The position numbers and the translations under genes are program-made. A stretch of 64,000 bases of DNA, from assembly GCA_029964075.1 (NCBI GenBank), contig CM057129.1, positions 27,457,430 to 27,521,429 of the forward strand, given 5' to 3'. Shown here one piece after another: positions 4,897-35,500 of the stretch (position 1 is its first letter; every line of letters begins with the position of its first letter). The notes beneath the pieces are model-generated. The model saw only the letters and a list, made by a program, of their open reading frames with translations, was not told where the DNA came from and searched no databases. Source of the stretch: Patiria pectinifera (taxonomy: Eukaryota > Echinodermata > Asteroidea > Valvatida > Asterinidae).

Positions 4897-5960
4897 TATG
4901 CATCGAAATGAGGCAATTTGAATAGATTTGGCTCCCTTAAATAAGGCATACAGACAGAATTATTGCTTTTCATGCATTTTATTCATTAATAATAACACCA
5001 CTCAAAATGCAAAGAAGAATGTTCAAAACATAACCAATTGAAGTTTCAGCTCAGTGGATATTTCACTTTTCGAGAAAAACAATGGCAAAAAAACATGCAC
5101 AAACTTTTGATCGCGAAACACAATTTCGTCCATAAAATGGGCCTATGTACAGAACTCTTTATTTCCAAAAATCAATCAATTGGCTGGACGTTTGAATTCA
5201 CCCACAAAAATTCTTCGTTTCTAAATGAAATATAGCCAAAAGGAATAATTTCACAAGGTGTTTAGTATCAGTACCATCTTTAATCTCAGTTTTCGGGGAC
5301 GTAGTTCGGTATATAGGTTATTTTTGAGACAGGCATAATTGAGATAAATTATCATGTGTGCCTTTATACAACTTCGCTGAACGTCTTTTCGGACATGTCG
5401 TTAAAAATCGCACATAGCTGTCGGCAAAAAGGACTCTTAAACCATGAACTACTTTCAAAATCAATTCTATTATGGAACGAAATATCTAGCAAACTTTTGA
5501 TTCATTTACTAACGCGGACACGCAAAGTTTTTCACAAATGTGTTAATAATTTTACAGTGTGTCGTATATCAAATACAGTGATAAAAATATTTCAATTTGT
5601 GATATGACTTCAATTTGTGAAGTTTAGATTCTGAAGTAAGTTCAATTTCTGCACCAGAACTAATATGGCTTTGCAGCAATTTTTTATTTTTTTTCTCACC
5701 TAAATGAATATTTGTAAAAATCTTAGATGTTCTTAATGTCCACAAGGAAAAGGATCAAAGTGGTCTTTGTTTTGGCAGTTGGTGAAAATGATCGTTTTGT
5801 GTTAGTCTTCTAGATGTGAAATGTTAAATCATTACCATTTGCCTCATTTAATTTTGATTTATTTATTTCAAAATTGTGAAGAGAAAAATAGATGTTTTTA
5901 AAGTATATTTGAAGAAAAAATAGTGCAACTGCAAGATGTCCATGCAATGTTAAAAACCTA
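4897..5960 (+). pseudogene. 3' flank relic of a deleted third GPCR copy
   Basis: From GCATCGAAATGAG onward this matches the end of both intact receptor genes (last codons, stop and 3' flank at 12615 and 27667). It keeps matching the flank of receptor 1 to about 13540 (AATTATTGCTTTTCATGCAT, TTTCAGCTCAGTGGA, TCTTTTCGGACATGTCGTTA). The coding exons that should precede it are absent, so a third receptor unit was present and was deleted or recombined away. Coordinates of the distal end are approximate. Confidence 0.75.
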
Positions 5961-6197: not shown

Positions 6198-6249
6198 ACG
6201 ATTGTTATAAACCTTATTATAATATCAAACTGTTTGAAGATGCAAAATA

Positions 6250-6422
6250 ACGATTCAATATAGTTGTACCATGGTGACATAGAAGCCAGTGGTAGCGTTC
6301 TGCTCGACGCCATGGGGACGAGGTTGTCTTTGAAAGGTCATGTTTGGCGCGGAAACTGAAAAATGGTTTAACGGTCGTTGAAACTTTGATTGAGCTGCGG
6401 AACAGAAAGTCAAGGTGTAATT
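6250..6422 (+). promoter_or_regulatory. Upstream half of the GPCR 1 promoter block
   Basis: This matches 20840-20990 upstream of receptor 2: GTAGCGTTCTGCTCGACGCC against GTAGCGTACTGCTCGACGTC, then CATGGGGACGAGG, the GTCGTTGAA(A/G)CT words and TGATTGAG(C/T)TGCGG. In receptor 2 the block runs straight into the TATA region. Here it stops at 6422, where a transposon begins, and the match resumes at 9959. Conservation between copies suggests an upstream regulatory block; individual factor sites cannot be named. Confidence 0.65.
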
Positions 6423-7199
6423 TAGCCTTGACCAAGGCTATCAGCTTGTTCCCATACGAGCTTGTTCCCGCTACCGCACACCGCGCGCGCCGCGACGCAA
6501 TCACTAGTTGTACTATACCGTTAGCCCCAACGACCCTTGCGTGTGCTTTGTGTACATGTACGTACGCCCCACACACATTTCCGCAAACAGCCGTACAGTA
6601 AGTCGAGTTGGAAGATAGCCTTGACGCAACCGTGGCGAATTCCTTATGTGTTTCTTTATAGTTTCGACCGAAATCGGCCGAGAATTTCTGATGCGCATAC
6701 ATTACACGATATCCAATTAAAGCCCGTAAACTTTGACCCACGATATACATATTCATGATCCCACAAATTTCTGTATACACCACGTACATGTATGTTCAAT
6801 CCCATATTAAACCATTTCTCCAGTTTTATTACAAACAATGAAATATGCCGCTATATGAGTGAACAATTGTTCAAAATGATACTATTTCCAATGTATTGCG
6901 AATTGGCCAGTTCAAGACAGTCCGCCGACGTTTATTGTCGGTGCAACAGCGTACATTATATCACGCCGCTACCTGCCCGTGCTATTCTGACAGCGAATGT
7001 AGGGAACAGGTCAACTCGGACCCAGGTCAAATCGTACCCATTTAATCGAATGCAGGTTAACTCGTATCTATAATTATAAGCACCCGTATGAATTAACTGC
7101 AAGAAACGAGCTATTGACTTTGGGATGGAAATTATACGAAACTGTCAGGTACATGGTGAAAAAAAAACTCTCCCTGAATTTGTACCATGTGCAACATAC

Positions 7200-7670
7200 A
7201 TCTCATACGTACGACCATGGAATTCCTTCCTCCATGGTACGACACATGTATTTTAAGGCGTAGTATGAATCGTATGTCGTACCTACGACATACGTACGAC
7301 ATGTAAGTCGTAGATGTAAATCGTACGAGATACAAGTCGTTCTCACAAGATATGTTGTATGTACAACATAATCGACAAACAAGTCGAACATACGAGTTAC
7401 ATTTCCTATTTTGTACACACGAGATATTAAGTCCTACTTATATACGACTTTGTCGTATGCGACATATATCGTACCCTGTTGACTCGACATATGCACGACA
7501 TATATGTCGTTCCGGCACCTGTCGACATTATGTCATACATGTATGTTTGATATGTCATACCCTGTCGACATATGTGTCGTACCCTGTCGATGATATTAGT
7601 CGTACCCTGTCAAAATATTTCGTACCCTGTCGATATATTAGTCGTACATACGACATATAACTTATAAGTT
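7200..7670. repeat. GTCGTAC-type minisatellite inside the Mutator-like element
   Basis: Degenerate repeats of words such as TACGACAT, GTCGTACCCTGTCGA and ACATATG occur in both orientations, so the tract is rich in short palindromes. Open frames through it give Tyr/Thr/Arg-rich nonsense. It accounts for much of the interior of the element. Confidence 0.7.
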
Positions 7671-8265
7671 GTTCATACAAGTTAAAATCAGTCTTACGGA
7701 ATAAGGTAGCTGAAGGAGAGATATTTTTTTCCATACCCCCTGGACAGCTTAGAAGAAATACCCCCCAAAAGTCAGCGGTAGATATACTGTACTCAAGTGT
7801 GTGAGCGCTTTTTTTGCCGATGAACGAGAAAGCGCAGCGTGTCTTACCGCATGGCGCCAGCTGGACCGGTGCCTACAGTTCACGGCCCCAACGTGGCCTC
7901 TGTGCACGGTGACATCGTTGTTGCCGGCGTGCGCCGGTTTTGTACCGTTTGCCTTTTTTTGAAGGTCTAATTTTTCATCCTTTTCTATTTCATTTTCGAC
8001 CAAATCTATGTGTAACTTTATAAATATCATTCTACTATTATTTAAGTTTTTAAGGGGGTGTTTTACAATAATTAATGTTACCACAGGGTTACCACAGGTC
8101 GTCTGGTTTATAATCCTTTGGTCGTATTATGCAATTTAATAAATATTCATTTTTTTGTCAGCCGTTATCCAATAAGAGAAGACTATTTACCATAGCTCGT
8201 ACTAATTATCATATTGAGCCTACACGGTTGCGTCAAGGCTATCTTCCACCTCGACTTACTGTACG

Positions 8266-9783
8266 TGTGGCAGGGCCCAGTTTTAGTTGTATGTTTTCAT
8301 AATTTATAGTGTATTAAATAGGAGTAGCTCCCCTTAGAAAACAAAGAAATCATTTGAGTTACTCAAGATCCCCCCCCCCCCTTTTCAGTAGTGTGACCCC
8401 CTGTTTGTTTACTTAAGCCCACATGTCCCCCCTATATAAACTGCCACATGGTCAAGCCACTTAAGTTCACCCAGCAGATCAGCAGAGACAAGTCACATGC
8501 ATATATTTTCCTCCTAACTGGAGTGCCTGTCCTTCTTTAGTTTTGTCTGCTTGTTGGAGTCATTTGCTTTGGTGATTTTTGATATGTTTTTCTGTTTTCT
8601 CTTATTAAGTTGTTAGAAGTTTTGAAAGGTCTTAACAATTAAGTTTTATAAAGTTCATGAGCAGCCTTTTGTGATTCTAAGTTACCAGTTGAGTTTAGTG
8701 ACTTGGAGACTTGGAGTTTTGGGATTTTGTAGGAAAATTGTGTTGTCACAAGAAGGTTGAATTGACTTGGTTTTCTGTGTTTTATTTCTCCATGGATTTC
8801 TTGACTTATTTTACTTCAGTGGTTGATACACATAGATGCATTGCATTGCCTTTTGATTATTAGGTTAATTGTTGATTTGATACTTTTTCTTTTGACTTCT
8901 GATTTCACTTATTTTGGATGGTGTTTTCTTCATTACCTTTATTGTTTTATTGTACCTGTATAAAGCCAAGAGGAATGGTTTTTCCACAGACTTCTTACTG
9001 ATTAGTTTGCCATGTTTATTCATTAGTTAGACTTGTCCAAGCTGTTCGTTTACTGTAGACCTGCATTTCCTTTATTTTGTATTTAGCCACCTGTTGCATT
9101 TAGTTGTTTTTATCTGCTTTGGACCTTTGCAAGTTTACTATTCAGGAATGTTGAATTACCCCCTTGGTGATTAGTCCCACCTGGCATTCAGAAGACAGGG
9201 ATCACTGTTTATCTTGCTCATTAAGTATTCACAAGAGATTTTGGTGTTCTTGGCAAGACTGTATAGCAGGTCCACAGGGCATTGTTTATATTACTTTAGA
9301 CCTAGTGTAGCCCAACTTTGTTTGCTTTGTGTATTTTTTCCTGGCAAAATTCTTAAAAGTATATTCCTTTTGTATTTTTTGTGTTTAGATATTTTGGGCT
9401 CAGTCTGAACGCACTCTAAGGCAATCCGCTATTGGCACTGTGTTGTTGGGTTTTTTTCGTCTTCTTTAGTTTTTTACTTTTTGTTTTCAATTTGATTTTT
9501 TTTCCAAATTTATTAATTTCTGGTTTTGTTTTCCCAAAAGGTTTTTTTTGGGTCACATTTCAAGTTTTTTTGGTGTCACATTTCAAGGTTTTTTTTGTGA
9601 ATGTAAAACTTGCAGTTAATCCTGGATTAATTTTTTTTTTTTGTAAAGTTCCATCCCAATTCAGTCCGTATCTCTTTCCTTTTTTACATTTGTCCCAGTT
9701 TTCTATTAAATTTTTCGCGACTGATCAATTTGAACCAGGCCTTTACAGATATTTTCTTTAGTGAACCGTTTTTCTTCGTTACA
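8266..9783 (+). mobile_element. Probable solo LTR nested in the right TIR
   Basis: This 1518-bp insertion starts TGTGGCAGGG and ends CGTTACA (TG...CA, as LTRs do) and is flanked by the 4-bp direct repeat TACG (8262-8265, 9784-9787). Taking it out makes the interrupted TIR continuous with its partner near 6596. A TATATAAA box sits at 8433-8440. It is T-rich towards the 3' end, lacks any RT or gag-like frame and lacks inverted ends, which fits a solo LTR left by recombination. The superfamily (Gypsy, BEL/Pao or other) cannot be told. A 4-bp duplication can occur by chance, hence the moderate confidence. Confidence 0.6.
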
Positions 9784-9958
9784 TACGGCTGTTTGTGGAA
9801 ATGTGTGTGGGGCGTACGTACATGCACACAAAGCACACGCAAGGGTCGTTGGGGCTAACGGTATAGTACAATTGTGTCGCGGCGCGCGCGGTGTGCGGTA
9901 GCGGGAACAAGCTCGTATGGGAACAAGCTGATAGCCTTGGTCAAGGCTAGGTGTAATT

Positions 9959-10229
9959 GTGCTCGAGCTTTCGTGATATCAGGCGATCATACGCCAATGA
10001 GGCCTAAATGTATATAAGGCCTTGTCCGAAACGAGCTCCCAGAGTTGCGACTACGTCTGCTGTCAGCATTTCTCCACGGTATTTGCAGTGCCGGGACGAA
10101 CACCTACACAATATCCCTAGACAAGATATTCGGATTCGGCCTTATTGGCTAAACCGTGGACAGGTAACAAGTCATAACGGGATAGCGTTCTCATTGAAGC
10201 TTAGGCTCCAACTTACAGGACTTTTACAG
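9959..10229 (+). promoter_or_regulatory. GPCR 1 core promoter and non-coding first exon
   Basis: A TATATAAG box is at 10011-10018. The downstream sequence is similar to that after the TATATAAG box of receptor 2 (21056-21063): GACAGGTAACAAGTCATAACG against GACAAGTAGCAAGCCATAGC, and GCTCCAACTTACAGGACTTT against GCTCCAACTTGCAGGACCTT. Both end in TTTACAG followed by GT (donor at 10230), so this is a spliced 5' UTR exon of roughly 10041-10229. It would join an acceptor at 11054. The start site is inferred from the TATA position. Confidence 0.6.
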
Positions 10230-10312
10230 GTACGTATGTCAAACTTTTTTCTTTCTGCCTCAAAATTCAGACACGGATTCTGTACGTATACATGTATATC
10301 TTTTGGGGAACA

Positions 10313-10400: not shown

Positions 10401-11066
10401 CAGCTTGGGTGTGAATACCTCCAATGACAAGGCCAAATTATATGCAGTTCTAGGCCTATATTTCGCACCTGGTACAATGGTGTCTGCTTGTCCATTCACA
10501 TAAACCACTGTCTGTATAATGGTGAAAAGGGTTGTAGGTTGTATCATTCTCCACAGCATATAGGTAAGACTAAGAACCATATAGGTAAGCCCAAAACGAT
10601 AATTTCTTGTGTGAAAAAAATCCCAAAATCTTGTGTCAACCCTATCACTAAACTGAAAGCACTATCTGATACTCGTATTACAGTGAACTCACATGGACCA
10701 GTTTGTATGAGAATAGCCTAATGTAGGCCTATGTGCACACAATATTTTTCAAACGTCAGTTGAGTACACAAAAAAAGGAATCACTGCATAAAAAGTGGCC
10801 ATGTATTTCATCTTTAAAAACAAGACAAAGTTACGGTACCTAGTAACCACCCCGACACCAGCTTCTATATAGACAAAACTGTGGTTGCAATCACGACTAT
10901 CGTATTTAACACAGAGCCATATGGACGACTGAAATGAATGGTTTAATCCTGAAATATCTTCAGTAACAGCCTCATGGCAATAATGATATTGTTGAAATAT
11001 TAGGTATTCCTAATGCGGCCAGGGGCTCCAAACTTTATGTTCAAATGCATGCAGAAGATACAGACC

Positions 11067-12629
11067 ATGGCATCGGTCGTGCTATCCACCCTACCCTCGA
11101 TCTCGAACGAGACAGACCCAACTCCGCCGCTACTTGTCGTCGACCCGTTTTACGGCCAGCCTTTCCAGAAGGCCATCGGCGTCTTCACATTTGTGGTAAT
11201 CGCAGTGGGTCTCGTGGGCAACTCGGCCGTTATCTTCATCGTATTGCGCTACCGTGACATGCACACGACGACCAACTTCTCCTTCGCCAACCTGGCGCTG
11301 ACTGACATCCTCCTGTTGGTCTTTCAAGCCTTGTCCGTCACCCTGGACATATTTGGCTACGCCGTGTCGGTGAGCCTCAACTGCTGGCCCACGTTCTACC
11401 TTCGATACGTATGTATTGCGGCCGCACCACACAATTTACATGCACCTTGTTTCAACCAATTTACTATAAGAAAAGACAGGCAAAATTGAATTACTTGGAC
11501 TGTTCGGAGGATTTTTCATGAAGCATTTGAAAATGTACTTTGATCTTCCTAAGTTTTTTTAGCTCGCAAACCATTTTTGTTGTGATTACGGGAGACGTAA
11601 TACTAATACGAAGTTACCACTTACTCTTTTCAATTTTATTGTGGATAAAAGCTTTCATTGCCCTGACACTTTCATCCGATGACAGGTTATTGGTGAGGTG
11701 ACGGGTCTTACATTGGCGATGATGTCATACGACCGATGGAGATTGGTTGCGTATCCGCTGGAGGCCGTCAAACACATCGAAAGACGCAAACGGGTCTTTC
11801 TGTTCGGTATAGTCATTCTGTGGGCTGGTAAGTGACATATCAGGCAACGGCCAAAGAAACAAAGATTAAGGATCATCTTTCTAGTGATTTTGTATTCACG
11901 GTTACTATTTTGAAGGTCTTGATCTGTAGTTCGTTTCCTGCTTTTGTTTTGCTCTCAGTTTCATTTGCGATGTATGTTCCGGTCATCTTCTACTCGGTCA
12001 AAATAGTATCCCTTGATGCTGCCTTTTGCACCATTTGGTTTCCTTGGGAATACGGCCAGAAGGTTTTCCAGACCTACACCGCCATCACAATGTACATCGT
12101 TCCGCTGATGTTCATCTCAGTGTGCTACCTGAAGATCTGGCTGAAGCTTCGACAGAAGACACCAGGTTCCGCTACAGCGTCGGGTACCAGCACGGCCAGA
12201 AGCTCGCAACGCATGCGCCGAACTCTCCGTTTAATCATGGTTGTGATCGCGGCCTTTGCGCTGTCGTGGCTAGCGCATCGTGCGCTCCTGATGTGGGTGG
12301 TGTGGGACCCCAATTTCCTTGCCTCCAGTCCCGTTTACCTAATCGGCTCGGGTATAGCCAATTTGATCGTCTACCTGAACAGTGTGGTCAACCCTTTCAT
12401 TTACCCATTTGCCGGTACCGGTTTCAGAAAACACCTTCCGGGATACTTACGCGGAATGCTTGCGCGCGATCAGACGGTTTCGTCACGAACCACGCCAAAA
12501 AGAAGTGGCGATAACGCGCAGATCAACGCGTTTACCGCGATGGCCCCTTCTCCGTGTCAGCACACGAGCATGGAGAGTCTGAGCGTCGGCTGCCAGACCT
12601 CACCTCCGCCGCCGCATGCATCGAAATGA
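11067..12629 (+). CDS. Class A (rhodopsin-like) peptide-receptor-like GPCR, copy 1
   Basis: Predicted seven-helix plasma-membrane receptor of 384 aa in three coding exons: 11067-11408, 11686-11827 and 11959-12629, all GT-AG with matching phases. Visible features: N-glycosylation site N14 (NET); TM1 about 36-60 with the GN pair (N52); TM2 with LALTD (D80); extracellular Cys106 and Cys185; DRW at 130-132 in place of DRY; Trp160 in TM4; TM6 ending FALSWLAH (264-268); NPFIY at 306-310; a 70-residue Ser/Thr-rich tail. The start ATG has a good context (GACCATGG) and is conserved in copy 2. The overall pattern is closest to neuropeptide receptors of the galanin/allatostatin/RFamide type, but the ligand cannot be named. 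Odd points: Ala267 replaces the nearly invariant TM6 proline kept in copy 2, and the promoter carries a 3.5-kb transposon. It may be diverged or impaired, though the frame is intact. Confidence 0.88.
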
Positions 12630-13540
12630 GCCAATTTGAATAGATTTGGCTTCCTTTAAATAAGGTATACAGAATTATTGCTTTTCATGCATTTTATTCG
12701 TTAATAATAACACCACTCACAATGCAAAGAAGAATGTTAAAAACATAAGCTATTGAAGTTTCAGCTCAGTGGACATTTCACTTTTCGATCAAACTTTTGA
12801 TCACGAAACACGATTTCGTCCATTTGAGCACAAATAGGCCTATGTACAGAACTCTTTTATTTCCAAAAATCAATCAATTGGCTAGACGTTTGAATTCACC
12901 CACAACAATTCCTCGTTTCTAAATGAAATATAGCCAGAAGAAATAATTTCACAAGGTGTTTAGTACCAGTACCATCTTTAATCTCAGTTTTCGGGGTAGT
13001 AGTTCTGTATATAGGTTACTTTTGAGACAGGCATAAATTGAGATCAATTATCATGTGTGCCTTTATACAGCTTCGCTGAACGTCTTTTCGGACATGTCGT
13101 TATACATCGCACATAGCTGACGGCAAAAAACTACTTTCAAAATCAATTATATTATGGGACGATAGATCTAGCCAACTTTTGATTCATTTACTAACGTGGA
13201 TGCGCAAAGTTTTGCTCAAATGTGTTAATAATTTTACAGTGTGATGTATATTAAAAAGAGTTAACAAAATATATTTCAATTTGTGACATGACTTCAATTT
13301 GTGAAGGTAAAAAGTAATTTCTATTTCTGCACCAGAACTAATAAGGGTTTGCAGCAATTTTTTCATCACCCAAATAAATATTTGTAAAAATATTACATCT
13401 TCTAGTGTCCCAAAGGAAAAGGATCAAAGTGGTCTATGTTTTTGCAGTTGGTGAAAATGATCGTTTTGTGTAAGTCTTCTAGATTTCGTGTAAGTCTTCT
13501 AGAAAAATAGATGTATTAAAAGTATATTTGAAAAAAGGGA
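12630..13540 (+). repeat. Receptor 3' flank, homologous to 4897-5960
   Basis: The DNA after the receptor 1 stop codon matches the relic at 4897-5960 nearly throughout. Receptor 2 shares only the first 60 or so bases (to about 27747). The unit therefore includes about 0.9 kb of 3' flank, probably with the 3' UTR. I see no canonical AATAAA close to the stop. Confidence 0.75.
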
Positions 13541-20770: not shown

Positions 20771-20839
20771 TGTAAGGGTCGGGTTTACTGTATAAACCCA
20801 AGATTTTGGAAGACGCTAATATTATTCAGTACTGTGGTG

Positions 20840-21139
20840 ACAAAGTATAGCTGGTAGCGTACTGCTCGACGTCATGGGGACGAGGTTAGGTTTAGTGGTT
20901 GTTTCTCTTTAAAATTCTAAAAGAAGTTTAGCGTGGAAAATGAATACAGAGTTTCATAGTCGTTGAAGCTCTGATTGAGTTGCGGAATTCATTTGGCTGT
21001 CATTGTTGTCGAGCTCACATGATAACGGTATCACGCGACAGTGCTCTCAGAACTGTATATAAGATGAAGAGCGGACAAGTAGCAAGCCATAGCAGGATAA
21101 AGTTCACAGGGAAAGCTCCAACTTGCAGGACCTTTACAG
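20840..21139 (+). promoter_or_regulatory. GPCR 2 promoter and non-coding first exon
   Basis: This is uninterrupted promoter sequence matching the two split halves at 6250-6422 and 9959-10229. The TATATAAG box is at 21056-21063; the first exon is about 21086-21139, ending TTTACAG with donor GT at 21140. The predicted acceptor is at 26064 (GCAG, followed by AAGATACAGACCATGG, identical in both copies), giving a 4.9-kb first intron. Confidence 0.6.
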
Positions 21140-21972
21140 GTATGTCAAACTTTCTTCTTTTCCCTCAAATTTGGGACATGACTTATGCTTGTTTCTTTCA
21201 TGTAACTGGCTCTACATACACCCGCTTCGTTTTCAGGGTTTGAACCCCTGCTCAAGGCAATCACAAGCAGTTTTCTTAGGGGTTACTTAGGTTTTTCTAC
21301 TCAAGTTCCTAAGAAACTCAATCGTTTTTGAATGGACGTATTCAAGCGATTTCGATCATACTGCTAATTCGTTGGTTCTTATTCATGTTCATTGCGCTCA
21401 ATTTCGTATATAGACATGTTCGAATTTGTTCACCAACACATCCTTTATCTTCGGCATCTATTCTTTTATCATTGCTCTATATTTCGTCCGAAATTGTTTG
21501 GGGAAAAAATGGTCATTTATCCTTTTGGAATTAATAATAGTCCCGAATAGGACTGTTTGGTTAACTTCTTAGATGTTTACTGTGCTTCTCTGTCTCTGCC
21601 TTCTTCTCTCAAGTTTCGGACCGTGTTCTTATTGCGGCAATCAAAATATAAGTCGCCGTGTACAAAACGAAATATACAATGAAATGAAATATACTCTCTA
21701 AATGTGTATCGATATTTGCGCTGTATGTTTTTTAAAGCTGTGAAAAAGATGAAGTTTTGAGGCTCCGTTTGTGTGTGTGTGAGACACCCCGTGTATATCA
21801 ATATAAATATAACACTTGGTTTATATCGGATTTAGCTATAGTGCTCTATGCTTTCGCAGAGCATATAATAACATATAGGTTCGGTCTATTCTGCTACCAT
21901 TGGTTTCAGGCACACGCAGACTGCGTGGCCATCATCAGGCGAATGGACTTCTTCGTTTGCACGGCTGGGTGG
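21140..21972. other. First intron of receptor 2, proximal part
   Basis: There is no gene here. It is AT-rich with short TG runs near 21771. The last 100 bases look like the 3' untranslated tail of the adjacent minus-strand Penelope-like element. Confidence 0.5.
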
Positions 21973-24295
<2,323 letters not shown>

Positions 24296-24353
24296 TTATA
24301 GCTCTGCAGAGATGTATCGAGCACTGTGAATTGTGATAGAAGACGATTTCATT

Positions 24354-24534
<181 letters not shown>

Positions 24535-24539
24535 TTTTA

Positions 24540-26060
24540 ATGTTCAGTGATTGTTCTCCAAAATATGATGTAAGTGGTCTATTTGAATTCCTATGCCAAA
24601 ACGTCGAAAATGTTTGCCCATTGAGAATTCATTTGACCACATGGTCTTGCCTCAAGGTTTGGACTTTTTTGAATGATATTCGCGGATGATTTTAATTTGA
24701 ATGAGCGTACTTTTAGATGAAATTGCCGTAATTTTCCGATTGCGTGCTCGAAAACTAAATTTAACATTCATTTTAGTTAATTGAATGGTGATCTTAAACT
24801 GCATTCAAACTATTGCTGAAACGAATGATCCTGAAGCTAAATTGGGTGGTAATTTGTTGAAATTGAATTGAAATTTTGTGGATAGATACAAAGCGGCCAA
24901 AATTATAAAGAATCCCCACTGTGTACACACGTAACAAAGTCAATGCGAATTCTTATACATGTACAAGGTATGACCATAATGACGCACGCAGGTTTATAGA
25001 TGGCGTCCTTTTCCGTGTACCGTATTTTGTGTGATATAGTTCTCTTCTTTGTTCTTTGGCACGAAACATCATCTGTCGTGGGTCGTAAGGCCCCAACATC
25101 CAAAAAGGTATATCCAGAAACTAGGCAATGATAGGATACTTGCCCAACATTGGTTCAAATTTACCTTGTTGTTGGTTAATTCGGTTAAAAATTTACCATC
25201 TTTTGGGATGAATTTGCCCAAGACTGCCAAGAGTGTCTGCAGTTGGTATGCTTACACAATTTGGTCTATACATACCAACCCATTTGCCAAAATTTGTCTA
25301 GTGTATCCTTTTCAGTAAAAACAGAAGACCTCTCAATGAAACCACTATTCGCCGCCGCTGTTGTTGTACTGCCCTAAAAACCGTTTAACCAGTTTATATT
25401 AGAGTTTAGTAAACATGTACACAAAACCGTATGCACGTCATTTCAGGCCAAAAATGGGAATCCCTGTTATAAATAAACCACTCTATCCGATAGAAGACAA
25501 AAAAAACGTCTGAGCTGTATGTCAGGTTACTTATAAGACGTCACCCCGATAGGCCTACACGCCTGCCTAATATTACATACAACATACTTCTGCCATCAGA
25601 AAGTTCGATCTCAATTTTGAATCTGCCACCAATGAAACATCTTAATAACGGAGATCGGAGGCACCTTTATTCGATTAGAATTTCTGATCGCTGTCAACTT
25701 TTTGCATTGTCATTGTTGTTTTACATGGTTTGCACTATAGTTCAGCATTTTGGGGGTAGACCGTCAAACTTCGTACCTTTGTCCAAAGAGCCGACAAACA
25801 AGTGGACTTATACTGCTGTCTTAACAAATTTACTTGTTTGCCTTGATAAATATTGATGCAAGCATTTACCACAAGATAGTTTGAAAGATAAACGGTCGAT
25901 TTTGAAGCAAACTATACAAAGTTGTTTAACAAAGAGTCTCATGGAGATCAAAAGCTAAAACAAAATACGCTACAGACCTTTCTGTTCACCAGGATCGTGG
26001 TGAGAGAGTTGAAATATATACTATTGCTCACAGGGTGTTAATTTTTGTATATGAATGCAC
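24540..26060. other. First intron of receptor 2, distal part
   Basis: About 1.5 kb of AT-rich DNA without recognisable repeats or genes. Short frames here have no family resemblance and no counterpart in receptor 1's first intron. Confidence 0.5.
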
Positions 26061-26076
26061 GCAGAAGATACAGACC

Positions 26077-27681
26077 ATGGCATCGGTCGTGCTATCCACC
26101 CTACCCCCGATCTCAAACGAGACAGACCCAACTCCGTCCCAGATCCCGCTTCCCGTCGACCCGCTATTTGGTCAGCCTGTCCAGAAGGTCATCGGCGTCT
26201 TCACATTTGTAGTAATCGCAGTGGGTCTCGTGGGCAACTCGGCTGTTATCTACATCGTGGTGCGTTACCGTGACATGCACACGACGACCAACTTCTCCTT
26301 TGCCAACCTAGCGCTGACTGACATCCTCCTGTTGATCTTTCAAGCCTTGTCCATCACCCTGGACACCTTTGGCTACGCCGTGTCGGTGAGCCTCAACTGC
26401 TGGCCCACGTTCTACCTTCGACACGTATGTATTGGGGCCGTGCTACACAATTTACATGCAACTTGTTTCAATTCTCCTATAAGAAAAGACAGGCAAAATT
26501 GAATTACTTGGACTGTTTCGGAGGATTTTTCATGAAGCATTTGAAAATATACTTTGATCTTCCTAAGCTTCCTTAGCTCGCAGACCATTTTTGTTGTGAT
26601 TACGGGAGACGTTATAGGGGGGCCTACCAATACGAAGTTACCACTTACCGTTTGAGTCCTTAATACATCAGCAGTGGTACAACTCTTTTAAATATTATGG
26701 ATAAAAGCTTTCATTGCCCTGACACTTTCATCCGATGACAGGTTATTGGTGAGGTGACGGGTCTTACGTTGGCGATGATGTCATACGACCGATGGAGATT
26801 GGTTGCGTACCCGCTGGAGGCCGTCAAACACACCGAAAGACGTAAACGGGTCTTTCTGTTTGGTATAGTCATTCTGTGGGCTGGTAAGTGACATATCAGG
26901 CAACGGCCAAAGAAACAAAGATTAAGGACATCTTTCTAGTGATTTAGTATTCACGGTTACTATTTTAAAAGTCTTGATCTGTAGTTCGTTTCCTGCTTTT
27001 GTTTTGCTCTCAGTGTCACTTGCGATGTATGTTCCGGTCATCGTCTACTCGGTCAAAGTATCCTTTTATGTTGTCTTTTGCACCATTTGGTTTCCTTGGG
27101 AATACGGCCAGAAGGTTTTCCAGACCTACGCCGCCATCACAATGTACATCGTTCCGCTGATGTTCATCTTAGTGTGCTACCTGAAGATCTGGCTGAAGCT
27201 TCGACAGAAGACACCAGGTTCCGCTACAGCGTCGGGTACCAGCACGGCCAGAAGCTCGCAACGCATGCGCCGAACTCTCCGTTTAATCATGGTTGTGATC
27301 GCGGTCTTTGCGCTGTCGTGGCTGCCGTATCGCGTGCTCGTGATGTGGTTGGTGTGGGACCCCGATTTCCTTGCCTTCAGTCCCGTTTACCTAATCGCCT
27401 CGGACATAGCCAGTTTGATCATCTACCTGAACAGTGTGGTCAACCCTTTCATTTACCCATTTGCCGGTACCGGTTTCAGAAAACACCTTCCGGCATTCTT
27501 ACGCGGAATGCTTGCGCGCGATCAGACGGTTTCATCACGAACCACGCCAAAAAGAAGTGGCGATAACGCGCAGATCAACGCGTTTACCGCGATGGCCCCT
27601 TCTCCGTGTCAGCACACGAGCATGGAGAGTCTGAGCGTCGGCTGCCAGACCTCACCTCCGCCGCCGCATGCATCGAAATGA
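26077..27681 (+). CDS. Class A (rhodopsin-like) peptide-receptor-like GPCR, copy 2
   Basis: Predicted plasma-membrane receptor of 385 aa, exons 26077-26424, 26742-26883 and 27014-27681, with the same phases as copy 1. It is nearly identical in TM1-TM4, TM5 and the tail, with an extra stretch in the N-terminus (SQIPLPVDPLFG against PLLVVDPFYG). It keeps the canonical TM6 FALSWLPYR, with Pro at the position where copy 1 has Ala, and NPFIY in TM7; it too has DRW rather than DRY. Variable sites cluster in TM4-ECL2 and TM6-TM7, the usual ligand-facing side, so the copies may differ in ligand response (inference). The promoter is uninterrupted, but the first intron is loaded with a dead Penelope-like element and long AT tracts. 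It is the better candidate for a working gene. Ligand unknown; galanin/allatostatin/RFamide-like receptors are the nearest pattern. Confidence 0.9.
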
Positions 27682-27911
27682 GCCAATTTGAATAGATTTG
27701 GCTTCCTTTAAATAAGGTATACAGAATTATTGCTTTTCATGCATTTCAACGTGCGTCAGTATAATAGAGATCCGTTGCTCGGGCATGTCGTTACATGGCA
27801 CTTACGTAATATAGCGTTACATCCTTTCTCCGATTCATATAGGCCTATTGAAGAGGATACGCAAAATTTTTACACGAATTTTAATTAGGCCTTCTTTGTA
27901 CAGGATGAGTA

Positions 27912-32502: not shown

Positions 32503-35500
32503 ATGGCAAGCTTCGTCAGTCTAACCTGTTGCTTGAAGGCCTGTGTGCTGTGTCTAATGTGCACAGCTACGGTATCCGAATGCGCCAAATTACTGGGAAA
32601 GGAAATGCAAAACTCTCGACCCGGTTTTAAAGTCATAACAGAAGGAAAAAGTGTCGGCGCAGACGCAGCTATTGGCACACCTCAGCAGCTGGATACGAAG
32701 GATATTAGTCATGAAGATCACCTGTCCTGTCGGCAATTCTTTAAGACAGAGATATGCGATGAGGTAAAGTATTCAAGAACTTCATAGACTTTCTTTAAGA
32801 ACAGATGAGTGTTTAATGGCAAAGCTTTGTGGGCGGATCCAGAAATCAGAGGAATGGAGCTTGCATTCAAGTTAATCGAGTCGGCATATTCTAGAACCAC
32901 AGTTGTTGCAGACGGGGTTGGTAATGTAGGGGGGGGGGCTAAAAGGGGTTTATCAAGGAATATGAGGAAGGGATCGAGGCTTTACATCCGGATCCCCGAG
33001 CAGAGGGCTTGCACAGAGCGCCCTCATTGGGGACATGTTTTTGTTTTGTTTTAAATGCAGTGATATTAAAGGACATCACGGAGGAAAAAAATACATGTCC
33101 ACAATGAGTTCATTCTGTGCAAGATATGTTTTCAAAATGAAAAGAAATATATTGATAATTTTGACCTTGAAATAAACACTGTATACTCAGTGTGGTCCCG
33201 AGTAATAATGAGAAAAACTACTCGGGTAAGACTCGAACCCATGACCTCCAGCTTAATAAAGCAGACGTCTTACCACTCGACCACCGAGCTTTCAGGATCG
33301 GCTGGCTGTTCGAATCTGATATAGCAGTCAGTACTGCAACCAACTAGTCAGAGGATGACTTTTTGTTTGCGTTGGGTGATGTAATTAAATTCAATAGTTG
33401 GTTTTACCCGAGTAATTTTTCTCACAAATACTCGGGACAACACTGAGAATACCGTGTTTATAAAACTACGTCGATGAAGGGCAAAATTGACCAAATATTG
33501 AATTTAAGTCACCCCAATGCAAAATTCCATCTTATCAATGCATCGTTATAAAATAGAGGCTTGTTTTCCAAACTCATTGCAGACTGCTCATTACGACACG
33601 ACCATTATTCCGACAAACAAAACAAAAAACCTGAATAATTTTAATTCCACGATAAAAAATTTCCCATTTCAGTGCTTTCTTGAGAACAACAGTGTTTCTA
33701 GCAAAGCACAACTCGGCGGCACAGCCAGCCGGCGAGATGGCCCAGTGGCCCCCGCCACAATCAACGAGCTGGCTCGAGTGGGCTCGGTACTCGTCTCCAA
33801 ACTCCAACAGGGAACGTGCGCGTTGGGCCGGTCCACCGCAGGGAGAGTGCGCAGGTCGGTCGTGGTCGGCGACATAGATGCATCCTTGTTTGTCGAAGCG
33901 ATCTACGAAAAGTACGGCACTTCAGGTGTTATCAATGAAGGTCGTAAGTAACCATAGGAACACATTTTCAATAACTTAGAAAATTAACAGATTTTTTTTT
34001 GGCATATGGGAAATGGCTATCTATGGAATATCCCCTTTGCACAGCAAGGGTCTATGATAATGCGAGCAGATTCGGCGATTAATTATGCAGATTCTGACCA
34101 TTCATCGGGCGCCTTCTATCGGGTCTTCCGTGACCCGTTGTTGTATTACAAAAACGTGTCAGCCAAACTGACCAATCAACAGCTAAGTCCACATTTCTCA
34201 TGGAAATGACGTCACAATTTCTAAAGTCGACTTCGATTAGCTGGCGCGCGTGGCCGCAAAGTAAAATGTGCTTTGCTCACATAAATATCAGACGTTGGTA
34301 ACGAAGGGCTCCCGTTGGACAATGGGTGTTACAGACAGAATTTGACACTTGTAAACAAGTCGTCTTGCATTTTTGCTGCCCTTGGGGTTTGTTTGATTGG
34401 GTGTGGTCAGCTCCTTGGACATGCATGACCACATGAACATGTGTATGTACATGTACACGTGCACACCTATGCAGACACCTACATGTATGCAGACATGCTC
34501 TGACATCACTCTGTAATTTATATGTGACATCCCTTTGGAAGCTCAGCAAAAGTAAGTTTACCGACATTTATTTGGTTATTTTATGATTGTGATTAGAGAT
34601 TTATTTTCTTAATTGAAAAGGAAATTTGTGTGTAAATTCGGATTATTTAGCCAGTCATATTGAACCATGTTGTCCTTTGAATACTTGTTCTTGTTGAAGA
34701 CATTGTAGGATGAAAAGTGTTTGTTATCTATACTTATATATATATTATTATGAAATTACTTGACTCAATAATTTTTTTTTTCTTTCTTTTCTTTTAGTTA
34801 TTTTCTTACTTTCTAATGATTTAATGCAAATTGGAAGAACAAATGGACAAAACATGGGCGCATTAAACATCATTATTATTTGCTTATGTTGTTTTTTTTT
34901 GCTTTAGAATTGAATGTTCTATATAGGCTAATCAGAAAGCGCTGTCTTTTCAGATGTCCATTTTTTGAAATTTCCATGAGATTTTTTACGTTGATGTTTT
35001 CAAATCATTTTCACATTCTTTTCAGATTAAAAGACATAAAAAAAAAAAAGCTTTTTGATTTTAGTTTTTCAAAAAATGAGAGAATTGAAAAGCATAAAAG
35101 CAAAGAAAACCTACAAAGTAAGCCAAAAAAAGAAAAATTGGCTTTGGCCCGTCGATTTTGTTTTACTAGTCGTGGTGTGTGGCCTAATTTTTGGAGAGGC
35201 AGTCCAGTAATAGGCCACATTTATGGGCTAAGCTGAAACCTTGCTTTGCTGCTTGCTTGCTACTTGCTTACTACTACTTGCAACCTGATTAATTGCCACA
35301 TCGTACACATTACTTTACTTTGAGACACCACTGTGAATGTGAATTAAAAACTGTGACAGCAGCAATCCAATGAGTATCACAAAACGAGCTTTGGTATTTC
35401 TGTAATCTGGGGAGGTTACAACGGGTGATACTCAGACTACATGGCAAGAGTAGAGATGTGAAGAAAAATGTTCATTGACATAATGCCGCATCCAAATTAC

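Follow-up and report, generated by a model that had tools for sequence, protein, structure and literature searches.

Nested transposon insertions near genes are common, and as a kind of event the nested split described here is ordinary, common and well described. Mutator-like elements (MULEs), in one account, make target duplications of 8–11 bp and commonly possess terminal inverted repeats (TIRs) of hundreds of bp, and the Rehavkus elements described there have 9-bp duplications, TIRs of 26–400 bp and, preceding the 3' TIR, a minisatellite (PMC6446971). Most arthropod MULEs, according to a second source, have a conserved G/C in their first three bases (PMC13359780). In rice, a unique region of ~2.7 kb lies 0.4 kb upstream of PsbS1; this region, which includes a MULE, a 9-bp duplication and inverted repeats of ~80 bp, is absent in most indica lines (PMC4178011).

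The locus analysed here resembled these systems in part. Its outer element had long terminal inverted repeats and 9-bp duplications, as do the MULEs and Rehavkus elements of PMC6446971; the Rehavkus elements described there carry a minisatellite before the 3' TIR, and the interior of the element analysed here had degenerate short repeats at ~7276–7657. A PHD finger in the transposase is a further criterion for Rehavkus, and no transposase was found in the interior frames that were scanned. Unlike most arthropod MULEs, as characterized in PMC13359780, the outer element had ends beginning TAGCCTTG. As at rice PsbS1, an insert with a 9-bp duplication was situated upstream of a gene; the rice case (PMC4178011) is an allelic difference in a plant, accompanied by a transient reporter assay, whereas here the difference lies between receptor paralogs, an LTR is nested within the insert, and the case is known from sequence. 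The inner insert resembled known solo LTRs: it consisted of one LTR (TG...CA) bounded by a 4-bp duplication, and full-length relatives were present in the genome. It differed from them in being a mosaic. A literature search, limited in depth, found no paper on this receptor array.

The locus is very probably explained by a transposon that split the promoter of receptor copy 1, and an LTR that entered the right repeat of that transposon and became solo, with the expression of copy 1 probably altered as a result. A non-autonomous TIR transposon would have inserted ~54 bp upstream of the TATA box of copy 1, duplicating 9 bp, and would thereby have moved the upstream block from beside the core promoter to a position 3,536 bp away, a distance that the sequence-only reading had correctly put at ~3.5 kb. 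An LTR retrotransposon would have inserted in the right terminal repeat of the transposon with a 4-bp duplication, TACG, and LTR-LTR recombination would later have removed the body of the retrotransposon. Both insertions, with their boundaries, their empty sites and their membership of dispersed families, were evident from direct comparison with other sequences in the genome, while the formation of the solo LTR by recombination is a step that we infer.

The receptor array

The window, i.e., the whole stretch of 64,000 nucleotides that was analysed (27457430–27521429 of C1), was joined to the 80 kb on its left, so that 144 kb were examined for receptor copies; the genome searched comprised 613.5 Mb in 1,020 contigs. 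The earlier count of two GPCR copies was too low, as the 144 kb contained at least seven in tandem (g1–g7). Five of these were found within the 80 kb left of the window by a genome search with 6250–6422, and the array may be longer, continuing beyond the left end of the 144 kb. Copies g1–g5 are upstream of the window; copy 1 is g6, the sixth of seven, and copy 2 is g7.

The coding exons of copy 1 (11067–11408, 11686–11827 and 11959–12632 with stop, + strand) predict an intact receptor of 384 aa, and those of copy 2 (26077–26424, 26742–26883 and 27014–27684 with stop, + strand) one of 385 aa. The last coding exon matched Pfam 7tm_1 (E = 9.6e-16) and the best solved match of copy 1 was galanin receptor 1 (2e-29), which identifies the array genes, by homology, as predicted class A peptide GPCRs of galanin-receptor-like type. 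The ligand class is not settled by these matches, because the Y2 receptor (111.8 bits) was slightly ahead of galanin receptor 1 (110 bits) for copy 2. Copy 2 outscored copy 1 against the Y2, galanin 1, KiSS-1 and somatostatin 2 receptors, whereas copy 1 outscored copy 2 against galanin receptor 2. Copy 1 reads SWLAH where copy 2 has SWLPY, the proline of which we take to be the conserved TM6 proline; the idea that copy 1 is a decaying receptor was rejected, since g1, g3 and g5 read SWLAH too.

Several other observations were made on the array. Pairwise dN/dS among the six copies with intact frames ranged from 0.55 to 1.28 in 14 of 15 comparisons and was 0.20 in one, and the receptor differences among these copies were concentrated near TM5, TM6 and the loop after it. 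In copy g4 (L013–L015, window coordinates about -32013 to -14955) the reading frame was broken in the C-terminal tail, and two introns were long (~3.1 and ~12.3 kb). The promoters of g3 and g5 were identical over 525 bp, yet these copies are ~48 kb apart. A relic of a receptor 3' end with its 3' flank was located upstream of promoter 1 (4898–5815), being 85% identical to 12616–13484, and four of the five upstream copies were preceded by a similar relic, which for g4 was ~10 kb away.

The split putative promoter and its uninterrupted counterparts

The promoter of copy 1 was divided into two parts on the + strand. The upstream block (6233–6422) matched the five upstream paralogs and copy 2, and included at its end one exact copy of GGTGTAATT (6414–6422); the second exact copy (9950–9958) immediately preceded a stretch conserved in six copies (9959–10229), to which the roles of core promoter and untranslated first exon are assigned from its sequence. 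These were the only two occurrences of GGTGTAATT on the + strand of the window. Left and right blocks were contiguous in all five upstream paralogs, with BLAST identities to the blocks of copy 1 of 92–96% and 89–97% respectively, and each paralog had a single copy of the target, reading GGTGTAATT in g3, g4 and g5 (3/5) and GGTGTATCT in g1 and g2 (2/5). Of the seven copies seen, copy 1 was the only one with the insertion, and the contiguity of both blocks around one target copy in five paralogs marks the insertion as the derived state. The sequence-only reading had proposed both the 9-bp duplication, which the exact pair and the inverted ends of the element bear out, and the derived state of copy 1, which now gains five nearer paralogs contiguous at the same site; it had named as contrary evidence blocks that are not contiguous in related species, and within this genome the reverse was found in 5/5 paralogs.

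That reading had relied on copy 2, whose uninterrupted promoter is located at 20806–21200 (+ strand) with the target site reading GCTGTCATT. The joined flanks of copy 1 scored 156 in alignment with copy 2, against 128 for the left part alone and 122 for the right; 500 mononucleotide shuffles of each part produced a top score of 38, so the match to copy 2 is not due to chance. Promoter differences from copy 1 were fewest for g4 (13/501), followed by g2 (19/500), g3 and g5 (21/501 each), g1 (47/491) and copy 2 (88/346), these counts starting after alignment column 20, as g4 is unmatched before that point. Five of the six uninterrupted sister promoters were therefore 90–97% identical to copy 1, and copy 2 is the diverged outlier of the array. 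The promoter block is conserved in copy 2, as had been claimed, in the sense that it aligns across the site at 81–82% identity over aligned bases, and copy 2 was the poorer comparator. Similarly, the view that copy 2 is not the rearranged copy is upheld at the insertion site and not further downstream, where ~130 bp just beyond the TATA box are absent from copy 2 and present in the six other copies.

The gene bodies of copies 1 and 2 (11044–12694 and 26054–27746, introns 2 and 3 included) were 93–98% identical, compared with the 81–82% over aligned bases of their promoters and first exons; this suggests that the bodies may have been homogenised by gene conversion. Lastly, the left flank matched the inner terminal repeat at 15/21 positions. 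This match was left as a coincidence: it depends on a 3-bp gap seen in copy 1 only, and 3 of the 127,958 21-mers of the window reach 15/21, a number that must include the flank and the terminal repeat themselves.

The nested elements and their order

The left terminal inverted repeat spanned 212 bp (6423–6634, + strand), with a boundary common to other copies, and was followed by an interior without recognised coding capacity (6635–8222). The right terminal inverted repeat was on the - strand in two parts, the inner ending in the left TACG (8223–8265) and the outer at 9788–9949. Once the flanks of the inner insert were joined (9949–9788 plus 8265–8223), the right arm was 205 bp long and matched the left arm at 201 of 205 ungapped positions, with one 7-bp indel; the outer element measured 2,005 bp when the LTR and one TACG were discounted. 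A genome search with the left terminal repeat gave 384 preliminary candidates, of which 40 were scored; these, among them the repeat of the window itself, were all 94–100% identical. Twenty loci were extracted, and all 15 on the + strand started TAGCCTTGAC at the identical base, although L036, L037 and L048 are not independent because they have a common flank. Both ends were sought in 13 of the 19 other loci and were present in eight; the remaining five provided no usable right end, either because it was beyond the extracted piece (three) or because the right repeat was broken (two). All eight copies with both ends had 9-bp duplications, of which seven were exact and one matched at 8/9. Interior matches longer than 1 kb to other copies were 82–89% identical.

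By these features, the long inverted repeats and the 9-bp duplications, the outer element is classed as a non-autonomous DNA transposon belonging to a dispersed family. Neither a significant Pfam domain nor a transposase was found in the 10 scanned of its 17 interior frames of at least 55 aa; one frame had two sub-threshold viral Pfam matches (E = 0.058 and 0.11), which were taken as chance. Its structure, i.e., the 9-bp duplications and long inverted repeats, fits a Mutator/Rehavkus-like superfamily, and to that extent the earlier label 'Mutator-like' was apt; the superfamily is unproven and no clade assignable, since a transposase was not found in the scanned frames. Candidates for an autonomous partner in L036, L042 and L054/L067 were rejected, as their interiors, judged by eye, contained retroelement-like frames or little coding sequence. 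L067 (with L054) had a frame of 606 aa that is presumably gag-like, and L036 a frame that we take to be reverse-transcriptase-like.

The insert in the right terminal repeat was an LTR of 1,518 bp (8266–9783, + strand), beginning TG and ending CA, with TATATAA at 8433, and it was flanked on the + strand by TACG at 8262–8265 and 9784–9787. When the insert and one TACG were removed, the right arm followed the left arm exactly across the junction, so that the left arm represents this site in its empty form; this restoration substantiates the proposal of an LTR in the right TIR with a TACG duplication. Of 276 candidate genome matches to the LTR, 40 were scored, and these comprised 53 pieces, counting the LTR itself. 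Full-length relatives were recognised as two pairs of long matches in the same direction, ~7.4 kb apart: L024/L025 (99.0% identity over 1,575 columns, flanks CATG) and L032/L026 (94.8% over 1,590 columns, flanks CGAG). In both pairs TGGTGCCGAAACCCGGGA, a primer-binding-like site, lay 4–5 nt in from the 5' LTR, and the 3' LTR was preceded by a purine-rich stretch. As the insert is a single LTR without internal end repeats, it is identified structurally as a solo LTR of a dispersed family with full-length members. Positions 1–299 of the LTR matched one group of copies at 93–96% and positions 303–1518 another at 82–87%, which makes it a mosaic.

The nesting indicates that the LTR entered the transposon. 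Nesting and duplications are compatible with entry either before or after the transposon reached the promoter, and so the claim that the order could be reconstructed from the duplications holds for the entry of the LTR into the transposon and fails to fix its entry at this promoter. The further claim of three dated events must be amended on both counts, because the solo LTR implies a fourth event and because only a relative order follows, the terminal-repeat clock being unreliable. Terminal-repeat divergence in the window copy (4/205) was the lowest of nine copies, the others showing 3–6%. Seven of the eight right repeats from other copies grouped together and apart from the left repeats, while the two terminal repeats of the window transposon grouped with each other; exchange or conversion between them is therefore likely and their divergence is not a clean clock. 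For this reason dating by terminal-repeat divergence (4/205 against the 13/501 to the nearest promoter) was not used.

The LTR was seen in none of the 10 other right arms, which leans towards its entry in the transposon of copy 1 and proves nothing. It seems unlikely that the composite moved as a unit, with the LTR already in the right terminal repeat elsewhere before the jump into the promoter. The nesting and duplications would be equally expected under that order, and the right repeat is uninterrupted over its outer 162 bp, making a mobile composite conceivable; set against this are the LTR-free arms just mentioned, and the probability that a long insert near the end would hinder movement. 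It is scarcely credible that copy 1 is ancestral and that the contiguous promoters are derived, the other copies having lost the element by precise excision. Nothing was found in favour of such a history, although copy 2 has its own rearrangement near the TATA box. Five close paralogs and copy 2 are uninterrupted, and each copy would require an exact excision that removed one 9-bp duplication too; no footprint was seen.

Predicted promoter structure and possible effects on expression

The core of copy 1 had TATATAA at 10012, and a GT donor at 10230 followed the conserved stretch. The five upstream copies retained the TATA box, the first exon and the donor, and an intron of ~0.83 kb preceded the ATG exon in five of seven copies. 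The flanks of the insertion resemble a TATA promoter together with a first exon that is untranslated, and we infer that this promoter works; a bacterial promoter scan was uninformative here.

The upstream block itself contained an older dispersed repeat (6252–6333, + strand), for which 33 of 40 scored genome matches (54 candidates) were outside the receptor array. The matches usually ended near 6327, and in six outside loci compared (L017–L022) the similarity to the window stopped at about this point, with a core of ~36 bp (GGTAGCG...GACGAGGTTG) better kept than the rest. The repeat was present before the array diverged, given that copy 2 also has it, and may be a transposon remnant, a useful motif, or both. 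At L022 a second, inverted copy of the repeat was located ~20 bp away.

The split has probably resulted in weaker or altered expression of copy 1, with the core left intact. A neutral outcome, in which the upstream block has no promoter function, the TATA core is sufficient and the expression of copy 1 matches that of its sisters, has a substantial chance of being correct, if rather less than an even one. Part of the block is a dispersed repeat, the insertion left both the core promoter and the first exon untouched, and the receptor of copy 1 is intact, as would be expected under neutrality; on the other side, the block was kept at 92–96% in the five upstream copies, an argument that carries little weight because the whole unit is kept at similar levels. 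The solo LTR is in gene orientation and its TATATAA could conceivably provide GPCR 1 with an alternative promoter, which is considered very doubtful. Transcripts from it would cross the right repeat and the old core and splice from the donor at 10230, and copy 1 would have an expression pattern unlike its six sisters. There were 36 ATGs between 8463 and 11066 (intron included), compared with none in 10042–10230, and so many ATGs in a leader started in the LTR count against this possibility. The array places one split promoter beside six uninterrupted sisters in a single genome. It is a natural experiment on two questions: whether a proximal promoter block remains active at a distance of 3.5 kb, and whether tandem duplicates diverge in expression through the insertion of transposons.

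Elsewhere in the window, a tRNA match at 33218–33290 (- strand) scored 30.7 bits, just above the Rfam cut-off of 29. In intron 1 of copy 2 (23919–24531), two long (TA)n arrays flanked a stretch of ~190 bp, which contained a near-perfect inverted repeat.
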